DNA from: a virus
Strand: one strand, 5' to 3'
IMG/VR virus record: IMGVR_UViG_3300044691_000578
Coordinates: 1 to 35,046 of that record
Length of the DNA: 35,046 nucleotides
In this document: positions 1,717 to 35,046 of the stretch, piece by piece
Position numbering within the stretch: the first letter of the stretch is position 1
Layout of the letters: the number at the start of each line of letters is the position of its first letter
The notes under the pieces: generated by a model
Seen by the model: only the letters and a program-made list of their open reading frames with translations
What the model was told of the DNA's origin: nothing
Databases searched by the model: none
Position numbers and translations under genes: made by a program

Positions 1717-2040
1717 ATGACAATTCAGACTTTCGTTTTATTTCAAAATCAAACAGTAAACGCGACTAGTGCTGTATTTGTAGTAAATTATCCGAATGAA
1801 AGAGGCGTAATTAAAGCTAGTGGTATATTTGGTGGCGCTACTATAATGATTCAAAACATAGCACCGAGTACTTCTCCCGCTGTTTGGATAAATGTTCCAG
1901 ATTTAACAGGGAATACTGTTGGTTTTACTACTAATGGACAAGCGATAATGGGAGGAATAGTACAGGGAGAATCAGTTAGGGCAGTACTTACTGGAGCTAC
2001 TGGCACTACTAATATAACCGTAACACTCGAGCCTTTATAA
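1717..2040 (+). CDS. Small beta-rich virion protein, tail-fibre cluster
   Basis: This 107-residue protein begins with ATG after AAGGATAAGTC and its TAATG stop overlaps the start of the tailspike gene at 2040, so the two are probably translationally coupled. The sequence is Thr-, Val- and Gly-rich with alternating hydrophobic residues, like a single beta-sandwich of the sort used as fibre adaptor or decoration. No catalytic motif or transmembrane segment is visible. Its function is inferred only from composition and position among fibre genes. Confidence 0.55.
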   Translation: MTIQTFVLFQNQTVNATSAVFVVNYPNERGVIKASGIFGGATIMIQNIAPSTSPAVWINVPDLTGNTVGFTTNGQAIMGGIVQGESVRAVLTGATGTTNITVTLEPL

Positions 2041-3809
2041 TGTATTTTGAACGAATAACAACAAGTGGCGGCGGTGGTGGTGGTTATACTACCATTGAAG
2101 AAAATGGCGTACCTTTGCCACAAGAAACAGCATTAAATTTTATAGGTGCAGCAGCTTCTGTAACAGATAATGCAGGAACAAGCACAAACGTAACATTTGC
2201 GCAAAATCTAAATGACATAGCTACTACTTCTCTTACTAAAGGTATGTTATTTACATCCAATGGTACTAATATAGTTCCTCTAACTGTTGGAACTAATGAT
2301 GCTTATTTGGTAGCAGACTCTACACAAACGGACGGCATAAGATGGGAATCAGCTTATAATACAGTTGAAGAAGAAGCATCAGCTCTTCCTCAGCGTGCAG
2401 TACTTAATTTTGAAGGAGCTGCAGTTACAGCCGTAGATGATGGCGCAAATAATAGAACTAATATCATAGTAAACAAAAATGTAAATGATATAGCTGGTCT
2501 TACTCCGACTGCAAATTCTGTTATATCTGGAAATGGTACCCATTTTGTTGATACAGTACTTAGTCCTGGTGGAATTTTCTATGTATCTGCTGCTTCTGGA
2601 AGTGATGCAACAGGTAATGGTTCTGTGGCTTTTCCATATGCATCAATTGGTAAAGCAGTATCAGTTGCATCAGCAAATACAGCTATATTGATTGAAGGTG
2701 GTTTATATACAGAATCAATTAACTTCGCAGGAATATCAGCTTTAACTTTGCAAGCAATTGGTGGAACGGATTATGGCTCTGTATTTATTACTGGAACCCA
2801 AAGCTTTACTAGCACCTCTAATCATATAACATTTATTGGAATTTCTTTCAGTAACGCATCAGCTGCTATGGCAACTATTAATGCAGCGGCACATATTAGT
2901 TTTCAAGCTTGCGTATTTAATGCGAGCGCGGCAACTAATCCAGCGATAACTATAACAGGCTCTATAACTGGCGAAATGATTATTAGAGATTGTTTAATAA
3001 CAGGTACCGTGTCTAATGCTGCTACTGCGTTTTTCCAAGTTTATTTAATAGGTCAACAATCTACTGCCTGTAATGTTACGGCTAGTAATGGTGCTACAAT
3101 AGTGCTTAATTGCGCTAATCTTGGTCTGGTTACTCATTCTGGCGGTATAATCGAGCTTCAAAACATAGTGCAAGTAACAGCAACAGCTGGTAATTCTGTT
3201 ACCTCTACTGCAAATGCTGCGGCTACTAATCAATTCATAATGAATAATACAAGTCTACAGCAAAATGACCTTTCTTATGGAACGCTCGTAAAAAGCGGAA
3301 CTTGTATATTTGTAATTGCAAGTTCTAATTATAATCCAGCTACTACATTTACAGGCGCAAGAGCAAATTTTGCGGTTCTCGCCAGTGATATGAATGCTAA
3401 TTACACGCCTGTACATTATACCGCTACTGATGGATCCGTAACAGGAAACTTGCATGGTATTGATAATGCGCTAGCTAGTGCATCTGGTGGAATAAGCTGG
3501 TCAGTTAAAACTACAAATACGGCAATAGTAAAAAATAATGGTTATTTCTCAAATGGTTCTGGCCTTGTGTTTACATTGCCTGCAACCGCTGCTGTCGGCG
3601 ATACATTTAGAATATCAAATATAGGTACAAGTTTTTCCGTAGCGCAAAATGCAGCTCAATCAATACAATTTGGTAATCAAGCAACAACTTCAGGCATTAC
3701 CGGATCATTAGCTAGTACATCCATAGGGGATAGCCTAGAGATAGTTTGTAATCAAACAAATAATGGCTTCATAGTGATTTCATCTATGGGCAATATAACT
3801 GTAACTTAA
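2040..3809 (+). CDS. Tailspike with beta-helix domain
   Basis: This 589-residue protein shows four parts. Residues 10-16 are a poly-glycine linker. Two tandem modules follow at about 16-100 and 106-175, each starting with a T-x-E-E-x-G/A-x-x-L-P-Q pattern and an ALNF/VLNF-x-G-A-A strand. Residues about 178-430 begin with FYVSAASGSDATGNGS and then repeat short V/I-rich strands with N and G turns, typical of a right-handed pectin-lyase-type beta-helix as in receptor-binding or depolymerase tailspikes. Residues about 487-589 form a C-terminal domain shared with the next gene. It most likely binds, and perhaps cleaves, a host surface glycan. Catalytic residues cannot be assigned by eye. Confidence 0.75.
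   Translation: MYFERITTSGGGGGGYTTIEENGVPLPQETALNFIGAAASVTDNAGTSTNVTFAQNLNDIATTSLTKGMLFTSNGTNIVPLTVGTNDAYLVADSTQTDGIRWESAYNTVEEEASALPQRAVLNFEGAAVTAVDDGANNRTNIIVNKNVNDIAGLTPTANSVISGNGTHFVDTVLSPGGIFYVSAASGSDATGNGSVAFPYASIGKAVSVASANTAILIEGGLYTESINFAGISALTLQAIGGTDYGSVFITGTQSFTSTSNHITFIGISFSNASAAMATINAAAHISFQACVFNASAATNPAITITGSITGEMIIRDCLITGTVSNAATAFFQVYLIGQQSTACNVTASNGATIVLNCANLGLVTHSGGIIELQNIVQVTATAGNSVTSTANAAATNQFIMNNTSLQQNDLSYGTLVKSGTCIFVIASSNYNPATTFTGARANFAVLASDMNANYTPVHYTATDGSVTGNLHGIDNALASASGGISWSVKTTNTAIVKNNGYFSNGSGLVFTLPATAAVGDTFRISNIGTSFSVAQNAAQSIQFGNQATTSGITGSLASTSIGDSLEIVCNQTNNGFIVISSMGNITVT
3641..3688 (+). repeat. Near-identical 48-bp repeat in fibre genes, copy 1
   Basis: These 48 bases differ at only two positions from 4232-4279 in the next gene. 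Both encode the same core of the C-terminal fibre domain (QNAAQSIQFGNQ). It is a recent duplication or a module kept alike by gene conversion. Confidence 0.9.
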
Positions 3810-3818
3810 GGAGATAAA

Positions 3819-4400
3819 ATGACTACAAACAATAGCGTAAATGGTCCGTTTCCATTATCCGCCACTCAAGGTGGTCTTGGCGTTGCAAGCCCAACTGCTC
3901 ATGGTATTTTAGTTGCTGAAGGAGCATCTCCTGCAACTCCTTTAGTACTTACAAATGGTCAATTATTAATTGGTTCTACTGGAGCTGATCCTGTTCCTGC
4001 TTCAATTACAGCAGGTGCTGGTATTATAGTAACGCCAGGAGCTGGCACATTAACCATAGCTGCAACAAATGCAATTACATGGACTGATGTTACTGGTACT
4101 TCTCAGGCAATAGCTGTGGATAATGGATATTCTGCAAATAATGCCGCGCTTGTAACTTTAACATTGCCTGCTACTGCCGCAATAGGTGACTTTTATGCGA
4201 TATATGCTAAAGGGGCTGGTTTATTTAAAATAGCGCAAAATGCAGCCCAATCAATACAATTTGGTAATCAAACAACAACAAGTGGTACTGGTGGTTCTTT
4301 GCAGGCAACATTAGTTGGTGATTATGTACTTATTCGTTGCGTAACTACAAATACCGGTTTTGCTGTTATGGGTTCGATAGGTAATATTACAGTAGTATAA
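3819..4400 (+). CDS. Tail fibre with shared C-terminal domain
   Basis: This 193-residue fibre protein has a strong AAGGAG ribosome site 6 bases before ATG. It starts with MTTNNSVNGP, matching the next gene's MTINNAVNSP, which suggests a common virion-attachment peptide. A middle segment (GGLGVASPTAHGILVAEG, about 25-42) is a module often met in phage tail fibres. The C-terminal ~100 residues, starting at WTDVTG, closely match the end of the tailspike encoded just upstream (both contain QNAAQSIQFGNQ and end GNITV). It is probably a short receptor-binding or trimerising fibre. No enzyme motif is visible. Confidence 0.7.
   Translation: MTTNNSVNGPFPLSATQGGLGVASPTAHGILVAEGASPATPLVLTNGQLLIGSTGADPVPASITAGAGIIVTPGAGTLTIAATNAITWTDVTGTSQAIAVDNGYSANNAALVTLTLPATAAIGDFYAIYAKGAGLFKIAQNAAQSIQFGNQTTTSGTGGSLQATLVGDYVLIRCVTTNTGFAVMGSIGNITVV
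4232..4279 (+). repeat. Near-identical 48-bp repeat in fibre genes, copy 2
   Basis: This is the partner of 3641-3688, with two mismatches in 48 bases and the same direction. Recombination between the copies would fuse the tailspike to the end of the short fibre gene in frame, since both copies encode the same peptide in the same reading frame. Confidence 0.9.
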
Positions 4401-9155: not shown

Positions 9156-9770
9156 ATGCTCATAGGTTATATGCGAGTATCTAGAAGCGATGGATCACAG
9201 AAGCTTGATCTACAAAAAGACGGATTGCTAGCAGCTGGTGTCTTAGAAGAAAATATATATAGTGATATGGCTAGTGGTTCTCGTGATGATAGAATAGGCG
9301 CAGAAAATTGCATGCGTGCATTAAGGAAAGACGACATACTAGTTGTTTATGCGCTTGATAGAATAGCCAGAAGTGTCAAGCATTCAGCAGTAATTGCAGA
9401 ACATCTAATTGAACGCGGTATTGGGCTTAAAGTCATAAGTGGCGCTGGTGCTATGGTAGATGTGACAACACCAGCTGGTAGATTTTATTATGATATGCTT
9501 GCAGCTGTGGCTCAACTTGATCGTGAATTTACTAGATTGAGAACTAAAGATGGTCTTGCAGCCGCTCGCGCTCGCGGAAGGTTTGGAGGAAGAAGAAGAA
9601 AAGTGACAAAACAAGTATTGCAAGTAATACAGCTTGCTATAAAAGATCCAAATACTTCAATTAAAGACTTAGCAAATCAATTTAATGTTAGCAAATTTAC
9701 TATATATTATTATGTATATGCGAATGGTGAACTTACTGAGTCTGGAAAGCAATTAATGGGAGAGGAATAA
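9156..9770 (+). CDS. Small serine recombinase (resolvase/invertase)
   Basis: This 204-residue protein has the resolvase/invertase build. The N-terminal catalytic domain begins IGYMRVS with nucleophile Ser9 and Arg7; ASGSRDDR supplies Arg46; LDRIAR gives Asp68, Arg69 and Arg72; VDVTTPAGRF and LDREFTRLRT begin the long E-helix. The C-terminus (about 150-190) is a helix-turn-helix for DNA binding. All catalytic residues are present. The length fits resolvases and DNA invertases (about 180-210) and not large serine integrases. It could resolve genome multimers of a plasmid-like prophage or invert a DNA segment. No inversion sites were found by eye. A catalytically dead relative is encoded at 13511-13876. 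Confidence 0.9.
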   Translation: MLIGYMRVSRSDGSQKLDLQKDGLLAAGVLEENIYSDMASGSRDDRIGAENCMRALRKDDILVVYALDRIARSVKHSAVIAEHLIERGIGLKVISGAGAMVDVTTPAGRFYYDMLAAVAQLDREFTRLRTKDGLAAARARGRFGGRRRKVTKQVLQVIQLAIKDPNTSIKDLANQFNVSKFTIYYYVYANGELTESGKQLMGEE

Positions 9771-10458: not shown

Positions 10459-10650
10459 ATGAAAGATAAGAGACCTCTTACCCCAGAATTACAATTTGAT
10501 TTAGAATTAGAACCTAATTGGGAAGAACTTAGAAAAGAAATTGCAAATGCTTTAGATGAATATAAACAAGAACTTCAACAAGAATATAAAGAGAATCATA
10601 TTTTTAGAGTAAAACAAAGTATCAAAGAAGAAAATGAGGTAAGAAGATGA
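10459..10650 (+). CDS. Small charged helical protein
   Basis: This 63-residue protein is rich in Glu and Lys, with a long probable helix from about residue 18 to the end. It overlaps the next gene by 4 bases (ATGA). No good ribosome site precedes it. I do not recognise the family. It opens a compact operon running to 12455. Confidence 0.5.
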   Translation: MKDKRPLTPELQFDLELEPNWEELRKEIANALDEYKQELQQEYKENHIFRVKQSIKEENEVRR

Positions 10651-10880
10651 CACTGAATGAATTTATAAAAATGTTACAGCAGCGCGAGCAGGAATGGGGA
10701 CATCTTCCTATATTTGTGGCAAAATTTGGTGTGCATTCTAGTTTAACTGATTGTAGGTTAGCAAGATTTCCTGCAGAAACATATGATCTCAAGTGTGGAG
10801 TTCACTATGGAAGAGAACATTTATATTTACTTCCAGGAAATTATCAATTGACTGAAGAAGAAGAAAATGACCTTGAATGA
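10647..10880 (+). CDS. MTLxE-family small protein, paralogue 1
   Basis: This 77-residue protein begins MTLNEFIKMLQQREQEWGHL and continues to a PIFV strand. The same start pattern (MTL-x-E-x-I-x-x-L) recurs in the next two genes, and the third also has a GG/GHLPI-like turn into a beta strand. Phages often carry small proteins of this kind with unknown function. It overlaps the previous gene by ATGA and the next gene by 14 bases. Confidence 0.55.
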   Translation: MTLNEFIKMLQQREQEWGHLPIFVAKFGVHSSLTDCRLARFPAETYDLKCGVHYGREHLYLLPGNYQLTEEEENDLE

Positions 10881-11025
10881 ACTAATTGCCGTATTAAATA
10901 CAGCTCCCGATGATGTGAAGAAAACAGTTGATTTTGCAGATGAATTTATAACGATCCTCTTGTGTGAGTTTGATGTTGCAGTTAATGGAGATAAAAAATC
11001 TATAAAATTACAAAGAAACAAATGA
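10867..11025 (+). CDS. MTLxE-family small protein, paralogue 2
   Basis: This 52-residue protein starts MTLNELIAVLNTAPDDVKK, like its two neighbours, but the rest is shorter and divergent (EFITILLCEFDVAVNG). It overlaps the previous gene by 14 bases and the next start by ATGA. It may be a diverged or shortened copy of the same family. The function is not known. Confidence 0.5.
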   Translation: MTLNELIAVLNTAPDDVKKTVDFADEFITILLCEFDVAVNGDKKSIKLQRNK

Positions 11026-11213
11026 CTCTAACTGAATTGATAGAAAAACTTATTCTTGCTAAAGAGAAATATGGAGGAGAGCTTATAATAAATATATGGG
11101 ACGGTAATGAAATTTTTAATGTTGACAAAGTAACTTATCATTATGCTTTTCCTGATATGCTAAATCTTCATCTTGAAGGTGTAGGATTTTTAAAATTTGA
11201 TGAAATATTATGA
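11022..11213 (+). CDS. MTLxE-family small protein, paralogue 3
   Basis: This 63-residue protein starts MTLTELIEKLILAKEKYGGE, then shows strands ELIINIWDG and VDKVTYHYA. It is the clearest member of the three-gene set, with a helix followed by a small beta-sheet. It overlaps the endolysin start by ATGA, so it is translationally coupled to it. It has no lysis motif of its own. Confidence 0.55.
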   Translation: MTLTELIEKLILAKEKYGGELIINIWDGNEIFNVDKVTYHYAFPDMLNLHLEGVGFLKFDEIL

Positions 11214-11635
11214 CTCTACTCTCTAAATGTGCCGAATTTACATCTAAGTTTGAGGGGTGCAGACTGGAGGCTTATCAAGATTCAGTTGGGGTTTGGACTA
11301 TTGGATTTGGAAGCACACACGAAGTAGTTCCACATATGCAGATAACACAATCGCAAGCATTAGAATGGTTAGAAAGAGACTTAAACGCTTCATATAACGC
11401 AGTTCAAAGATTAATTAAAACGAATTTATCTGATGATCAGTATATAGCACTCATTGATTTTGTCTATAACCTGGGAGCTGGTACATTACAAAGATCAACT
11501 CTACGCGCTAGGTTAAATAGGGGCGATATGGATTGCCAGAATGAATTCTTAAAATATAATAAGGCAGGTGGAAGACCGCTAAGAGGTTTAACCATAAGAA
11601 GACAAGCAGAGGTAAAGTTATGGCTAAAGCATTAA
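11210..11635 (+). CDS. Endolysin, GH24 T4-type lysozyme
   Basis: This 141-residue muramidase hydrolyses the glycan strands of peptidoglycan at lysis. The T4-lysozyme triad is intact with family spacing: Glu15 (KFEG), Asp24 (AYQD) and Thr30 (VWTIGFG). The typical QYIALIDFVYNLGAG segment (about 78-92) and a C-terminal TIRRQAEVKLW helix follow. The length is near the P22/T4 lysozyme range. No signal peptide or signal-anchor segment is visible, so it should depend on a holin (candidate at 6817-7263). It overlaps both neighbours (ATGA before; the next ATG is at 11620). Confidence 0.93.
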   Translation: MTLLSKCAEFTSKFEGCRLEAYQDSVGVWTIGFGSTHEVVPHMQITQSQALEWLERDLNASYNAVQRLIKTNLSDDQYIALIDFVYNLGAGTLQRSTLRARLNRGDMDCQNEFLKYNKAGGRPLRGLTIRRQAEVKLWLKH

Positions 11636-11790
11636 CTTTACCACGTGATCTAGTGTTGCAAAATCTTAAAATGAAAGCTCCTGACATATATAAAAAAGTA
11701 ACAGATGATAGAAAGGTTTATTCAGACTTTTTTAAATTAGTTGATTATTATGATCTAGATCAAATTATAAGAATGATGAGAGGTAGATAA
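11620..11790 (+). CDS. Small basic helical protein
   Basis: This 56-residue protein starts inside the end of the endolysin (16-base overlap) after GAGG, and its TAATG stop overlaps the next gene. It is probably all-helical with basic and acidic patches. I do not recognise it. Coupling at both ends supports it as a real gene. Confidence 0.5.
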   Translation: MAKALTLPRDLVLQNLKMKAPDIYKKVTDDRKVYSDFFKLVDYYDLDQIIRMMRGR

Positions 11791-12455
11791 TGGAATTTAA
11801 TAAAGAAATTATAGAATTGCATAATAAAATGTTATTTGTTTTAGAACGTATAAAATCATTGCAAGAAGCTGTTATTGGGTTACAAGAAAGAGTATTAGGT
11901 ATAACTGAAGAAAATAGTCAACTTAATTCAATTATAGAAACTTTTCCAGAATTATATAATAATGATGAAGGCAAGCATTTAATTAAAGATTTATACGCAT
12001 CTGCAAGATTACGAAATACCTTATCTAATGCTGGTTATATATATCTAGAAGATATAGAATTTCCTTTAGATGAGACAAGTTTGTTATATAAAATAGATAA
12101 TTTTGGCAAAAAAACTCTTTATGAATTAAAGCTTCTTTTAATTGAATGCATAGGCAAAGCTGCTTTTGGAGATAAAAAGCCTTTTTTTAAATGCGAGATT
12201 CACCATTACGATTATTATCTAAGTGAATGCGGTTTTGCTAAACATCAAGTGGATTTGATGGAAAGCTATATAAAAATGACACTAGAGAATAAAAGTAAAG
12301 AGATGATAAATGAAGTGCATGGTAATTACCTAGAAAATATAGCGTATATAATAAAAACACTTAAAAATTACATGGAAATATATGATTTAAATGAAGAAGA
12401 AATAAAAGATTTCTTTTTAGATAATAAATATTTAATTTCATATTTTTCAAGATAA
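11790..12455 (+). CDS. Coiled-coil protein with RNA polymerase alpha-CTD-like domain
   Basis: This 221-residue protein has an N-terminal coiled coil (about 5-48). Residues about 66-119 then resemble the C-terminal domain of bacterial RNA polymerase alpha: SARLRNTLSNAGYIYLEDI, a short linker, then KIDNFGKKTLYELKLLL. In the true alpha-CTD this is S-x-R-x-x-N-x-L-x-x-x-x-I-x-x-I-x-x-L ... L-x-x-x-x-N-F/L-G-x-K-S-L-x-E-I/L-K, and the NFG-K-T/S-L turn is the best part of the match. Alpha-CTD binds UP-element DNA and activators. The remaining 100 residues are acidic and helical. A role in steering host RNA polymerase is an attractive inference; a general helix-hairpin-helix DNA-binding role is the alternative. 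Confidence 0.6.
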   Translation: MEFNKEIIELHNKMLFVLERIKSLQEAVIGLQERVLGITEENSQLNSIIETFPELYNNDEGKHLIKDLYASARLRNTLSNAGYIYLEDIEFPLDETSLLYKIDNFGKKTLYELKLLLIECIGKAAFGDKKPFFKCEIHHYDYYLSECGFAKHQVDLMESYIKMTLENKSKEMINEVHGNYLENIAYIIKTLKNYMEIYDLNEEEIKDFFLDNKYLISYFSR

Positions 12456-12516: not shown

Positions 12517-12696
12517 ATGACAGATAAAAAAAAGCATCCTGGTTTTAAAGCTGTAGAGAAAAAAATCGAGAAAGAAGGTTATTCTAAAGAATCTGCTGGT
12601 GCAATATTAGCAAATGCATCGCGTCATGCATCAAGCAAAGCCAAAAAAGCAAATCCAATGCTAAAAAAAATTAAAGGCTCTACAAAACGTGGTTAA
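12517..12696 (+). CDS. Small conserved phage protein (KHPGFKAV family)
   Basis: This 59-residue basic protein begins MTDKKKHPGFKAVEKKI and contains SAGAILANASRHAS, then ANPMLKKIKG. This whole pattern is a widespread small protein of tailed phages with no known function; it is basic and may bind nucleic acid or be packaged. ATG is 7 bases after AGGAG. It is the first gene after the promoter at 12461-12489. Confidence 0.75.
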   Translation: MTDKKKHPGFKAVEKKIEKEGYSKESAGAILANASRHASSKAKKANPMLKKIKGSTKRG

Positions 12697-13308: not shown

Positions 13309-13511
13309 GAAGAAGAACAATGATAGCTCCAGTCAATCCTCATATAAATAAAGTTATTTTGGACTTAGAAGCAAAGATTAGATTTTTTGAGCATCAGATT
13401 GATATGAATCAAGAAATAGTAGCAGCTTCATTAAATAAAATAGGCAGTTATTCCGATGAAGTAAAAGATGTAATTGAAGCGCTATTATTAATTAAAGGAA
13501 TCAATAAATAA
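13305..13511 (+). CDS. Small helical protein
   Basis: This 68-residue protein starts at ATG 13305, 7 bases after GGAAG; a second ATG at 13320 is possible. It is mostly two helices (about 13-35 and 48-66). It overlaps the previous gene by ATGA and the next by one base (TAATG). I do not recognise it. Confidence 0.5.
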   Translation: MRRRTMIAPVNPHINKVILDLEAKIRFFEHQIDMNQEIVAASLNKIGSYSDEVKDVIEALLLIKGINK

Positions 13512-13876
13512 TGAATAAATTTGTGGGATATATTAAAGGCAATTCAGAAAAAAAAGTAGAAGAGCAAAAGAAAATATTAAAATTATATGTAAATGACACA
13601 GAAGGTGGATCTGACGAGCATGGATCTATATTCAAAGATTTAATAAAATCATTATGCATAGGTGATACTATAGTTGTAACCAGTCTTAAAATCATTTCTT
13701 ATGATGCCAGACAAATAATAGAATTTATAAGTACAGTGGAAGAGAATGGATTATATTTTATTTCTATTGAAGAATCTATAAATACTAGCATGGAAAAAGA
13801 TAGGAAATTTGCTGAATCTTGTATGATTTTAGCACCTTATAGCGTACAATCTACAGGAGCATATAAGAAGAAGTAA
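13511..13876 (+). CDS. Catalytically dead serine-recombinase-like protein
   Basis: This 121-residue protein follows the fold pattern of a serine recombinase catalytic domain: strand FVGYIKGN (compare IGYMRVS), GGSDEHGSIFKDLIKSL, then GDTIVVTSLKIISYDARQIIEFIS (compare DDILVVYALDRIARSVKHSAVIAEH), ENGLYFISIEESINTS (compare RGIGLKVI...VDVTT) and EKDRKFAESCMIL. Every catalytic position is changed: Arg7 to Lys9, Ser9 to Asn11, and the Asp-Arg-x-x-Arg set to Lys60, Ile61 and Tyr64. The E-helix and helix-turn-helix are missing. It cannot cut DNA by the known chemistry; it may bind or regulate the active recombinase at 9156-9770 or have another job. It is the last gene before a strong terminator. Confidence 0.65.
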   Translation: MNKFVGYIKGNSEKKVEEQKKILKLYVNDTEGGSDEHGSIFKDLIKSLCIGDTIVVTSLKIISYDARQIIEFISTVEENGLYFISIEESINTSMEKDRKFAESCMILAPYSVQSTGAYKKK

Positions 13877-13907: not shown

Positions 13908-13938
13908 AAGGCCTCCTTAAAAAAGAGGCCTTTTTTTT
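13908..13938. terminator. Bidirectional rho-independent terminator
   Basis: AAGGCCTC/GAGGCCTT (13908-13915 and 13925-13932) with a 9-base loop, followed by eight T's on the plus strand; on the minus strand the stem is followed by AATTTTT. It separates the rightward operon ending at 13876 from the leftward Bet operon ending at 13995. Confidence 0.92.
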
Positions 13939-34108: not shown

Positions 34109-35046
34109 AGGAATTTGGACCTTTTAATGCTGGAGTAGAACAATTAGTCAATGCATATACGGGCGGCTTTAGACCAAAAGTTTCTGCTGCAGGTATTGCT
34201 GCCATAGAAAAATTAAAGGGTATGCCTTATGGGCCCGCATATGAAAAAGCATTACAAGAAATTCTTCAAAGAGAAGCTGGTAATGCGCAGGAAAATCCAA
34301 ATGCAGCAAGAGCAGCCCAACTTGGTGGCGCTCTTTTATCTCCTATGCTTGGTGGCGCTACTGCTGGCCAAAGAATTGGAGGAGCAATTTTAACTGGTGC
34401 AATTGGCGGCGCTGGAACTACCTATAACGGAAATCTAGAAGATTATGGAGAAAATATTGCTGCAGGTGGCACAATTGGAGGAGCTGGCGGAGCTATAGGT
34501 GAACAAGCAAATAAAGCGATTCGGGGAACATTTGGCGTTACCGCGGAAAAGCTAAAACCATTTTATGAAGCAAATATTGAACCAACTCTTGGCGCTGTTG
34601 GAAATAAATTATCTAAATTTGTACAAAATGTTTCTGCAAATACTTTAGGTGGTATGGGGAAATTTGAGCAAATTGCAGATAAAACTTATAACAAAATAGA
34701 AAATTATGTAAATAAGCTTAGTTCTAAATCAAATCTCACTCAAGAAATGAAAGGAAATATTGCTAGGAAAGGATTAGAAGAAACCCGTAGCCTTGGAAAT
34801 GAAGCAGTAAATAAGTCATATGAAGATCTAAAAAAGATATTACCTAACAATACAGAGATACCAGTAGATAATTTAGTATCACATGTAACAAAATTAAAGA
34901 AGGAGCTTTCGCCTGCAGCATTTGATGCGCTTAAAAAGACCCCAGCTGGAAGTAGAATAGAAGATATTTTAAAAGAAGCAGAACCTAAATTTGATTATGT
35001 AAAGGGATCAGGTGTTACTAAGGCTCTTCCTTATGATAGGGCCCTC
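34105..35046 (+). CDS. Ejection (internal virion) protein, N-terminal part
   Basis: This is the 5' part of the gene that continues at 2-1138: the 314 codons here run in the same frame through the 127-bp repeat and on from base 128, giving about 650 residues in all. The start has a helical region, then a hydrophobic, Gly/Ala-rich segment (about 68-125, with LGGALLSPMLGG and GGAILTGAIGGAG) that could cross a membrane, then Lys/Glu-rich helices. This pattern fits the large ejection protein that forms the trans-envelope part. ATGA overlap with the previous gene gives coupling. Confidence 0.72.
   Translation, partial: MKEFGPFNAGVEQLVNAYTGGFRPKVSAAGIAAIEKLKGMPYGPAYEKALQEILQREAGNAQENPNAARAAQLGGALLSPMLGGATAGQRIGGAILTGAIGGAGTTYNGNLEDYGENIAAGGTIGGAGGAIGEQANKAIRGTFGVTAEKLKPFYEANIEPTLGAVGNKLSKFVQNVSANTLGGMGKFEQIADKTYNKIENYVNKLSSKSNLTQEMKGNIARKGLEETRSLGNEAVNKSYEDLKKILPNNTEIPVDNLVSHVTKLKKELSPAAFDALKKTPAGSRIEDILKEAEPKFDYVKGSGVTKALPYDRAL
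34920..35046. repeat. Terminal direct repeat, right copy
   Basis: Exact copy of 1-127. Removing one copy closes a 34,919-bp circle with an intact gene across the join. Confidence 0.97.

Follow-up and report, generated by a model that had tools for sequence, protein, structure and literature searches.

Genetic Organization of the P0001 Locus

The viral record analyzed here spans 35,046 bases, the whole of which is referred to below as the window. An exact 127-base terminal repeat (positions 1-127 and 34920-35046) makes it probable that the genome is complete, in a circular or terminally redundant form. Recognizable genes include those for terminase, a phrog_156-type portal, the major head protein, a RecT-type annealing protein, DnaB and lysozyme, as well as tail-fibre genes, AlpA and serine recombinases. 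Relatives of the portal and DnaB proteins are spread over many hosts. In agreement with an initial sequence-only reading of the locus, no phage RNA polymerase gene was recognizable among the proteins scanned, a set covering part of the small ORFs. The gene of interest, P0001, and the features in and around it are as follows:

11210-11635, + strand: phage lysozyme (endolysin), located upstream from P0001 within a shared run of overlapping genes (PF00959, E 4.6e-40; phrog_7)
11620-11790, + strand: 56-aa ORF between the lysozyme gene and P0001, overlapping both (ORF list)
11780-11783, + strand: GAGG Shine-Dalgarno sequence, separated from the P0001 ATG by 6 nt (read from the sequence)
11790-12455, + strand: P0001 coding sequence, 221-aa alpha-CTD-like protein (ORF list, Pfam, genome scan)
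11799-11936, + strand: coiled coil, residues 4-49, with I7, M14, I21, V28, V35, N42 and I49 at a positions and L10, V17, L24, L31, I38 and L45 at d positions (heptad count; AlphaFold helix 2-51)
11973-12152, + strand: alpha-CTD-like helix-hairpin-helix (HhH) domain, residues 62-121 (Pfam, genome scan, AlphaFold, fold comparison, alignment, phage profile)
12006-12017, + strand: R73 and N76, equivalent to the DNA contacts R265 and N268 of E. coli (alignment with E. coli RpoA)
12099-12125, + strand: N104, G106, K108, T109 and E112, equivalent to N294, G296, K298, S299 and E302 (same alignment)
12153-12452, + strand: C-terminal helical region, residues 122-221, of no known family (low-confidence models)
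12517-12696, + strand: 59-aa basic protein, conserved downstream neighbor of P0001 (comparison with relatives)
13908-13932, no strand assigned: hairpin with a T-run, likely the terminator of the + strand unit, which it separates from the convergent recT gene (sequence)

The P0001 start codon overlaps the stop codon of the preceding 56-aa ORF (TAATG at 11788-11792), for which no family match was found in Pfam or PHROGs. This overlap, the overlap of the 56-aa ORF with the lysozyme gene and the GAGG sequence place P0001 in the + strand gene run of the lysozyme. The run probably ends at the 13908-13932 hairpin, facing recT, which lies 1.5 kb downstream from P0001 on the other strand. The G+C content of the P0001 gene is 0.248, compared to 0.345 for the genome. 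A scan for promoter-like sites around the gene returned 50, against 46.9 +/- 8.4 in shuffled sequences, with neither an excess nor an outstanding class. Thus, the host-type promoters that had appeared readable at first sight are indistinguishable from chance.

P0001 Carries an Alpha-CTD-Like Domain

The motifs SARLRNTLSNAG and NFGKKTLYELK, which had initially suggested an RNA polymerase alpha-CTD-like domain behind a coiled coil, are both present in P0001. Profile searches corroborated this assignment. PF03118 (RNA_pol_A_CTD) is the only notable Pfam family match of the protein (E 8.8e-5, 22.6 bits, residues 62-116), and a six-frame scan of the genome with the same profile gave a single match in the 35-kb record (24.9 bits, E 5.3e-7). 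These scores are borderline, the first lying just below and the second above the curated cut-off of 23.8 bits. At E<=0.001, the profile matches exactly once in each of 10 bacterial genomes (in 9 of the 10 within a frame of normal rpoA length), and stray matches at such a level are therefore rare. A profile derived from 17 other phage alpha-CTDs, P0001 being left out, identified P0001 with an E-value of 4.6e-9 (32.4 bits); its best score on 1000 copies with residues 62-121 shuffled was 11.8 bits and no other ORF of the window exceeded 6.6 bits. Sequence comparison with the PDB returned no chains other than those of RNA polymerase alpha (best E 0.003). The HHH_5 profile gave no match on P0001 at E<=1, nor was there a match to the alpha-NTD family anywhere in the 221 aa, the N-terminal part being the coiled coil. 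No close homologues of P0001 were found in PHROGs, annotated phages, plasmids, viral contigs or genome contigs.

The AlphaFold model, computed from a 12-sequence alignment, shows a helix at residues 2-51, a confident domain at about 61-121 (pLDDT ~90) and a poor C-terminal part. Alpha-CTD chains rank first in both Foldseek and VIA-align comparisons (1z3e_B, Z 8.9, TM 0.75 on target), residues 58-126 of the model superposing with an rmsd of 2.4 over 65 residues. Rad51-type HhH domains come next with Z ~7, in a range that may denote a mere common arrangement. Neither a different fold nor a better-matching unrelated HhH family lacking the DNA-contact residues emerged from these comparisons. The E-values from Foldseek do not go below 0.09, a weak level that is no surprise when the domain makes up 60 residues of a 221-residue model, and the model is biased toward the alpha-CTD fold by the other alpha-CTDs present in the alignment supplied to AlphaFold; for both reasons, the structural evidence is supporting rather than independent. 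When the model was compared with viral protein models, the top three matches, covering mainly the alpha-CTD region, were A0A6J5QDR9 and A0A6J5M7I6 (uncultured Caudovirales) and A0A2P1JY10 (Rhodococcus phage Finch), all phage-encoded like P0001 and all annotated as "RNA polymerase alpha subunit C-terminal".

DNA-Contact Residues Are Kept and Protein-Contact Residues Have Diverged

Residues were mapped by alignment with E. coli RpoA (L148), whose contacts with DNA, sigma and CRP we take to be those of the established assignment. All seven DNA-contact positions are kept in P0001, one of them as an S to T change (S299 = T109); they include the equivalents of Arg265, Asn268, Gly296 and Lys298 (R73, N76, G106, K108), the four singled out beforehand for inspection. 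With identity at 18 of the 61 aligned positions, finding at least 6 of the 7 DNA positions identical by chance has a probability of 0.002. Conversely, only D259 (as D67) is kept among the sigma- and CRP-contact positions (259, 261, 285-288): the sigma contact E261 is replaced by Y69, and the CRP 287 determinant T285/E286/V287/E288 reads E95/T96/S97/L98. Unfavorable to DNA binding is the net charge, -1 for the domain and -12 for the whole of P0001.

Conservation of the DNA positions holds across 18 phage orphan alpha-CTDs, some of which are close to each other: R265 and G296 are present in 18/18, N268 and S/T299 in 17/18 and N294 in 16/18, K298 being the position that varies while the other DNA positions stay constant. 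This conservation is partly ascertained, as the profile search selects for the same residues.

Compared to bacterial alpha, then, P0001 shares the fold, the order and spacing of the motifs and residues R265, N268, N294, G296, K298 and E302 (with S299 as T). It differs by the absence of an alpha-NTD, the changed sigma- and CRP-contact residues, two additional residues ahead of the second motif and the setting of the domain, which is preceded by a coiled coil and followed by a helical tail of 100 aa.

The Coiled Coil and the C-Terminal Region

The N-terminal coiled coil predicted early on is well supported. Between residues 4 and 45, I, L, V or M occupy 11 of the 12 a and d positions, a count reached in none of 2000 shuffles (0/2000), and pLDDT values are 79-93 over residues 1-50. 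The P0001 heptads have I, V or M at the a positions apart from one Asn (N42), with Leu predominating at d, as in parallel two-stranded coiled coils; they are near-perfect and of the kind seen in parallel dimers.

The C-terminal 100 residues have no family match in Pfam or PHROGs and no relatives among annotated phages, and their models are too poor for a fold search. The C-terminus had been described as acidic. Overall it is just mildly so (net -4 over 101 residues); the description does hold for a stretch around residues 193-211. Separately, a C134, H137, H138, C146 cluster opens this part of the protein (window 12189-12227); it might bind metal.

Orphan Alpha-CTD Proteins in Other Phages

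Relatives of the virus were gathered by terminase alignment (80 viral loci), and 50 related records were scanned for alpha-CTD. Two of the 50 gave a match. One, IMGVR_UViG_3300020062_000005 (36.8 kb; terminase 60% identical), encodes two alpha-CTD proteins of 207 and 141 aa (L102 1276-1899 and L104 7803-8228, respectively), both far nearer to bacterial RpoA than P0001 is (Pfam E 3e-19 and 8e-18). As in P0001, a helical N-terminal part precedes the alpha-CTD in both; unlike in P0001, the alpha-CTD lies at or near the C-terminus. The 207-aa protein aligns with residues 6-120 of P0001, helix included (E 0.003), and has a 15-residue insert in its alpha-CTD. The gene for the 141-aa protein begins 8 bases after a recT-like gene. 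The second matching record encodes a 68-aa, fragment-like alpha-CTD protein. A further relative (L010) has the same lysozyme gene and 59-aa neighbor, the latter following directly with no alpha-CTD gene in between, and P0001 therefore occupies a variable slot.

Two wider scans recovered orphan alpha-CTD proteins, mostly of 123-174 aa, in viral contigs with G+C contents from 0.48 to 0.65. Their N- or C-terminal extensions are varied (L105-L133). Genes neighboring those for orphan alpha-CTDs encode RecT (L104), RecE and helicase (L108), DNA polymerase (L107, L118 and, judged from the size of the gene, L122), exonuclease VIII and primase/helicase (L114), helicase and primase (L133) or a primase/polymerase. 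In 6 or 7 of about 9 lineages, a gene for replication or recombination is found no more than ~3 kb from the orphan gene, an uncontrolled count to be read as a lead only. The sequence-only reading had placed P0001 after lysis genes in a middle/late operon. The gene does belong to the lysozyme run, but a late context is not general because the alpha-CTD genes of relatives mostly lie in replication/recombination modules.

Among annotated phages, gp24 of Microbacterium phage Morrill and its kin (139 aa, annotated "DNA binding protein") are also phage orphan alpha-CTDs (Pfam E 4.5e-11); they differ from P0001 in having another N-terminal part, G at the K298 position and M at the S299 position. Phage orphan alpha-CTD proteins are thus already annotated in databases, and it is the coiled-coil, alpha-CTD and helical-tail arrangement that is new. 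The literature searched, in which subscription papers were thinly represented, contained no functional study of a phage-encoded alpha-CTD protein; as some spellings of alpha-CTD may escape such a search, this is weak evidence of absence. Phage proteins known to act on alpha-CTD generally do so by modifying, cleaving or binding the domain.

Possible Roles of P0001

From the domain, the kept DNA-contact residues, the heptads and the genetic context, as read in the sequence and the model, we infer that P0001 dimerizes, likely binds DNA and competes with the host alpha-CTD, and thereby plays a role in transcription. The combination of a kept DNA face, lost protein faces and a coiled coil speaks for a dimer that binds DNA rather than for a mimic of polymerase. 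The N-terminal coiled coil would pair two chains in parallel, placing two alpha-CTDs side by side as two alpha subunits do, and each module would grip the minor groove of A/T-rich DNA like the host alpha-CTD at UP elements. Since the DNA grip is kept, while the alpha-NTD and the known sigma- and CRP-contact residues are missing, P0001 would most likely occupy UP-element-like DNA and, once there, would compete with both alpha-CTDs of the host RNA polymerase. Promoters used by the host polymerase, on host or phage DNA, might be tuned or shut off as a result. Tentatively, then, we regard P0001 as a dimeric binder of AT-rich DNA that rivals host alpha-CTD at UP-like sites and tunes host-polymerase promoters; among the readings considered, this is the one we prefer, though we stop short of calling it probable. 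A block of polymerase at UP elements, one of two roles suggested at the outset, is possible and close to this reading. If true, a DNA grip of this type, likely dimeric and free of polymerase, would let a phage rival the host enzyme at its strongest promoters by simple means.

The main rival explanation is that P0001 serves as an accessory DNA-binding factor in replication or recombination, the HhH dimer sitting on a DNA structure or on A/T-rich DNA (an origin, near recombination proteins) with no part in transcription. The association of orphan alpha-CTD genes with recT, recE, helicase, DNA polymerase, exonuclease VIII and primase genes, in relatives and in unrelated phages, suits this role equally well; in the window, too, recT is close to P0001, and the fold class takes in the Rad51 N-terminal HhH domain (Z ~7). 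However, early phage modules contain transcription regulators too, the neighborhood count is uncontrolled, and P0001 itself is in a lysozyme gene run. Furthermore, the kept residues are those of alpha-CTD, and the profile that detects the protein is one for alpha-CTD, not one for HhH domains in general. On balance we consider this explanation unlikely, if the most serious of those competing with occupancy of UP-like DNA.

Redirection of host RNA polymerase was the other role suggested at the outset: a pair of alpha-CTDs would sit on DNA or on sigma region 4 while the C-terminal helices hold the polymerase and bring it to phage promoters. In the apparent absence of a phage polymerase the host enzyme must serve; the helical C-terminal 100 residues with their acidic stretch could be a partner-binding part, and the D259 equivalent (D67) is kept. 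Yet mimicry of alpha-CTD toward polymerase is not supported, given the Y in place of E261, E-T-S-L instead of T-E-V-E at 285-288 and the absence of an alpha-NTD. The docking part that such a recruiter needs is not recognizable, the C-terminal region having no known relatives, and the promoter scan near the gene singled out no class. Recruitment therefore appears distinctly improbable.

Two further explanations have little to commend them. A free alpha-CTD might act as a decoy, soaking up proteins aimed at the host alpha-CTD, be they activators, Spx-like factors or enzymes with which competing phages modify alpha; R265, the known site of ADP-ribosylation by T4 Alt/ModA, is kept as R73, and alpha is a target of phage enzymes such as Rac of phiKMV-like phages (PMC7552054), but it is the protein-contact surfaces that have diverged and the DNA-contact surface that is kept, and a decoy is very unlikely. 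Just as remote is a relic or moron, namely a domesticated rpoA fragment that has no function today and sits in a variable slot behind the lysozyme gene: the low G+C content, the empty slot in L010 and the lack of an alpha-CTD match in most related records have to be weighed against a frame that is intact over 221 codons, has a Shine-Dalgarno sequence and is coupled at its start, and against the selective retention of DNA-contact residues.

Beyond P0001, competition at UP-like DNA might be a wider strategy: several unrelated phage groups may each have acquired the alpha-CTD DNA grip independently and joined it to modules for pairing or for other purposes. The products would make up an unrecognized class of phage transcription factors, free alpha-CTD dimers that act as competitors at UP elements. 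This generalization we deem doubtful. Orphan alpha-CTDs with kept DNA-contact residues do recur in many uncultured phages.

Other Features of the Window

Three short adjoining ORFs upstream from the lysozyme gene (10647-11213; starts at 10647, 10867 and 11022) have like beginnings, MTLNEFI, MTLNELI and MTLTELI, a resemblance that suggests duplication. Ahead of the hairpin, positions 13511-13876 encode a 121-aa resolvase N-terminal domain devoid of its DNA-binding part; a full serine recombinase is also found at 9156-9770. In the tail region, a 49-nt near-identical direct repeat (3640-3688 and 4231-4279) joins the ends of the neighboring tail genes 2040-3809 and 3819-4400. A relative (L145, 4683-8679) carries at least five similar tail-gene copies in a row, spaced at ~600 bases. 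Several of these phages also have genes for serine recombinases. Repeat, gene copies and recombinases possibly constitute a tail-fibre shuffling cassette.
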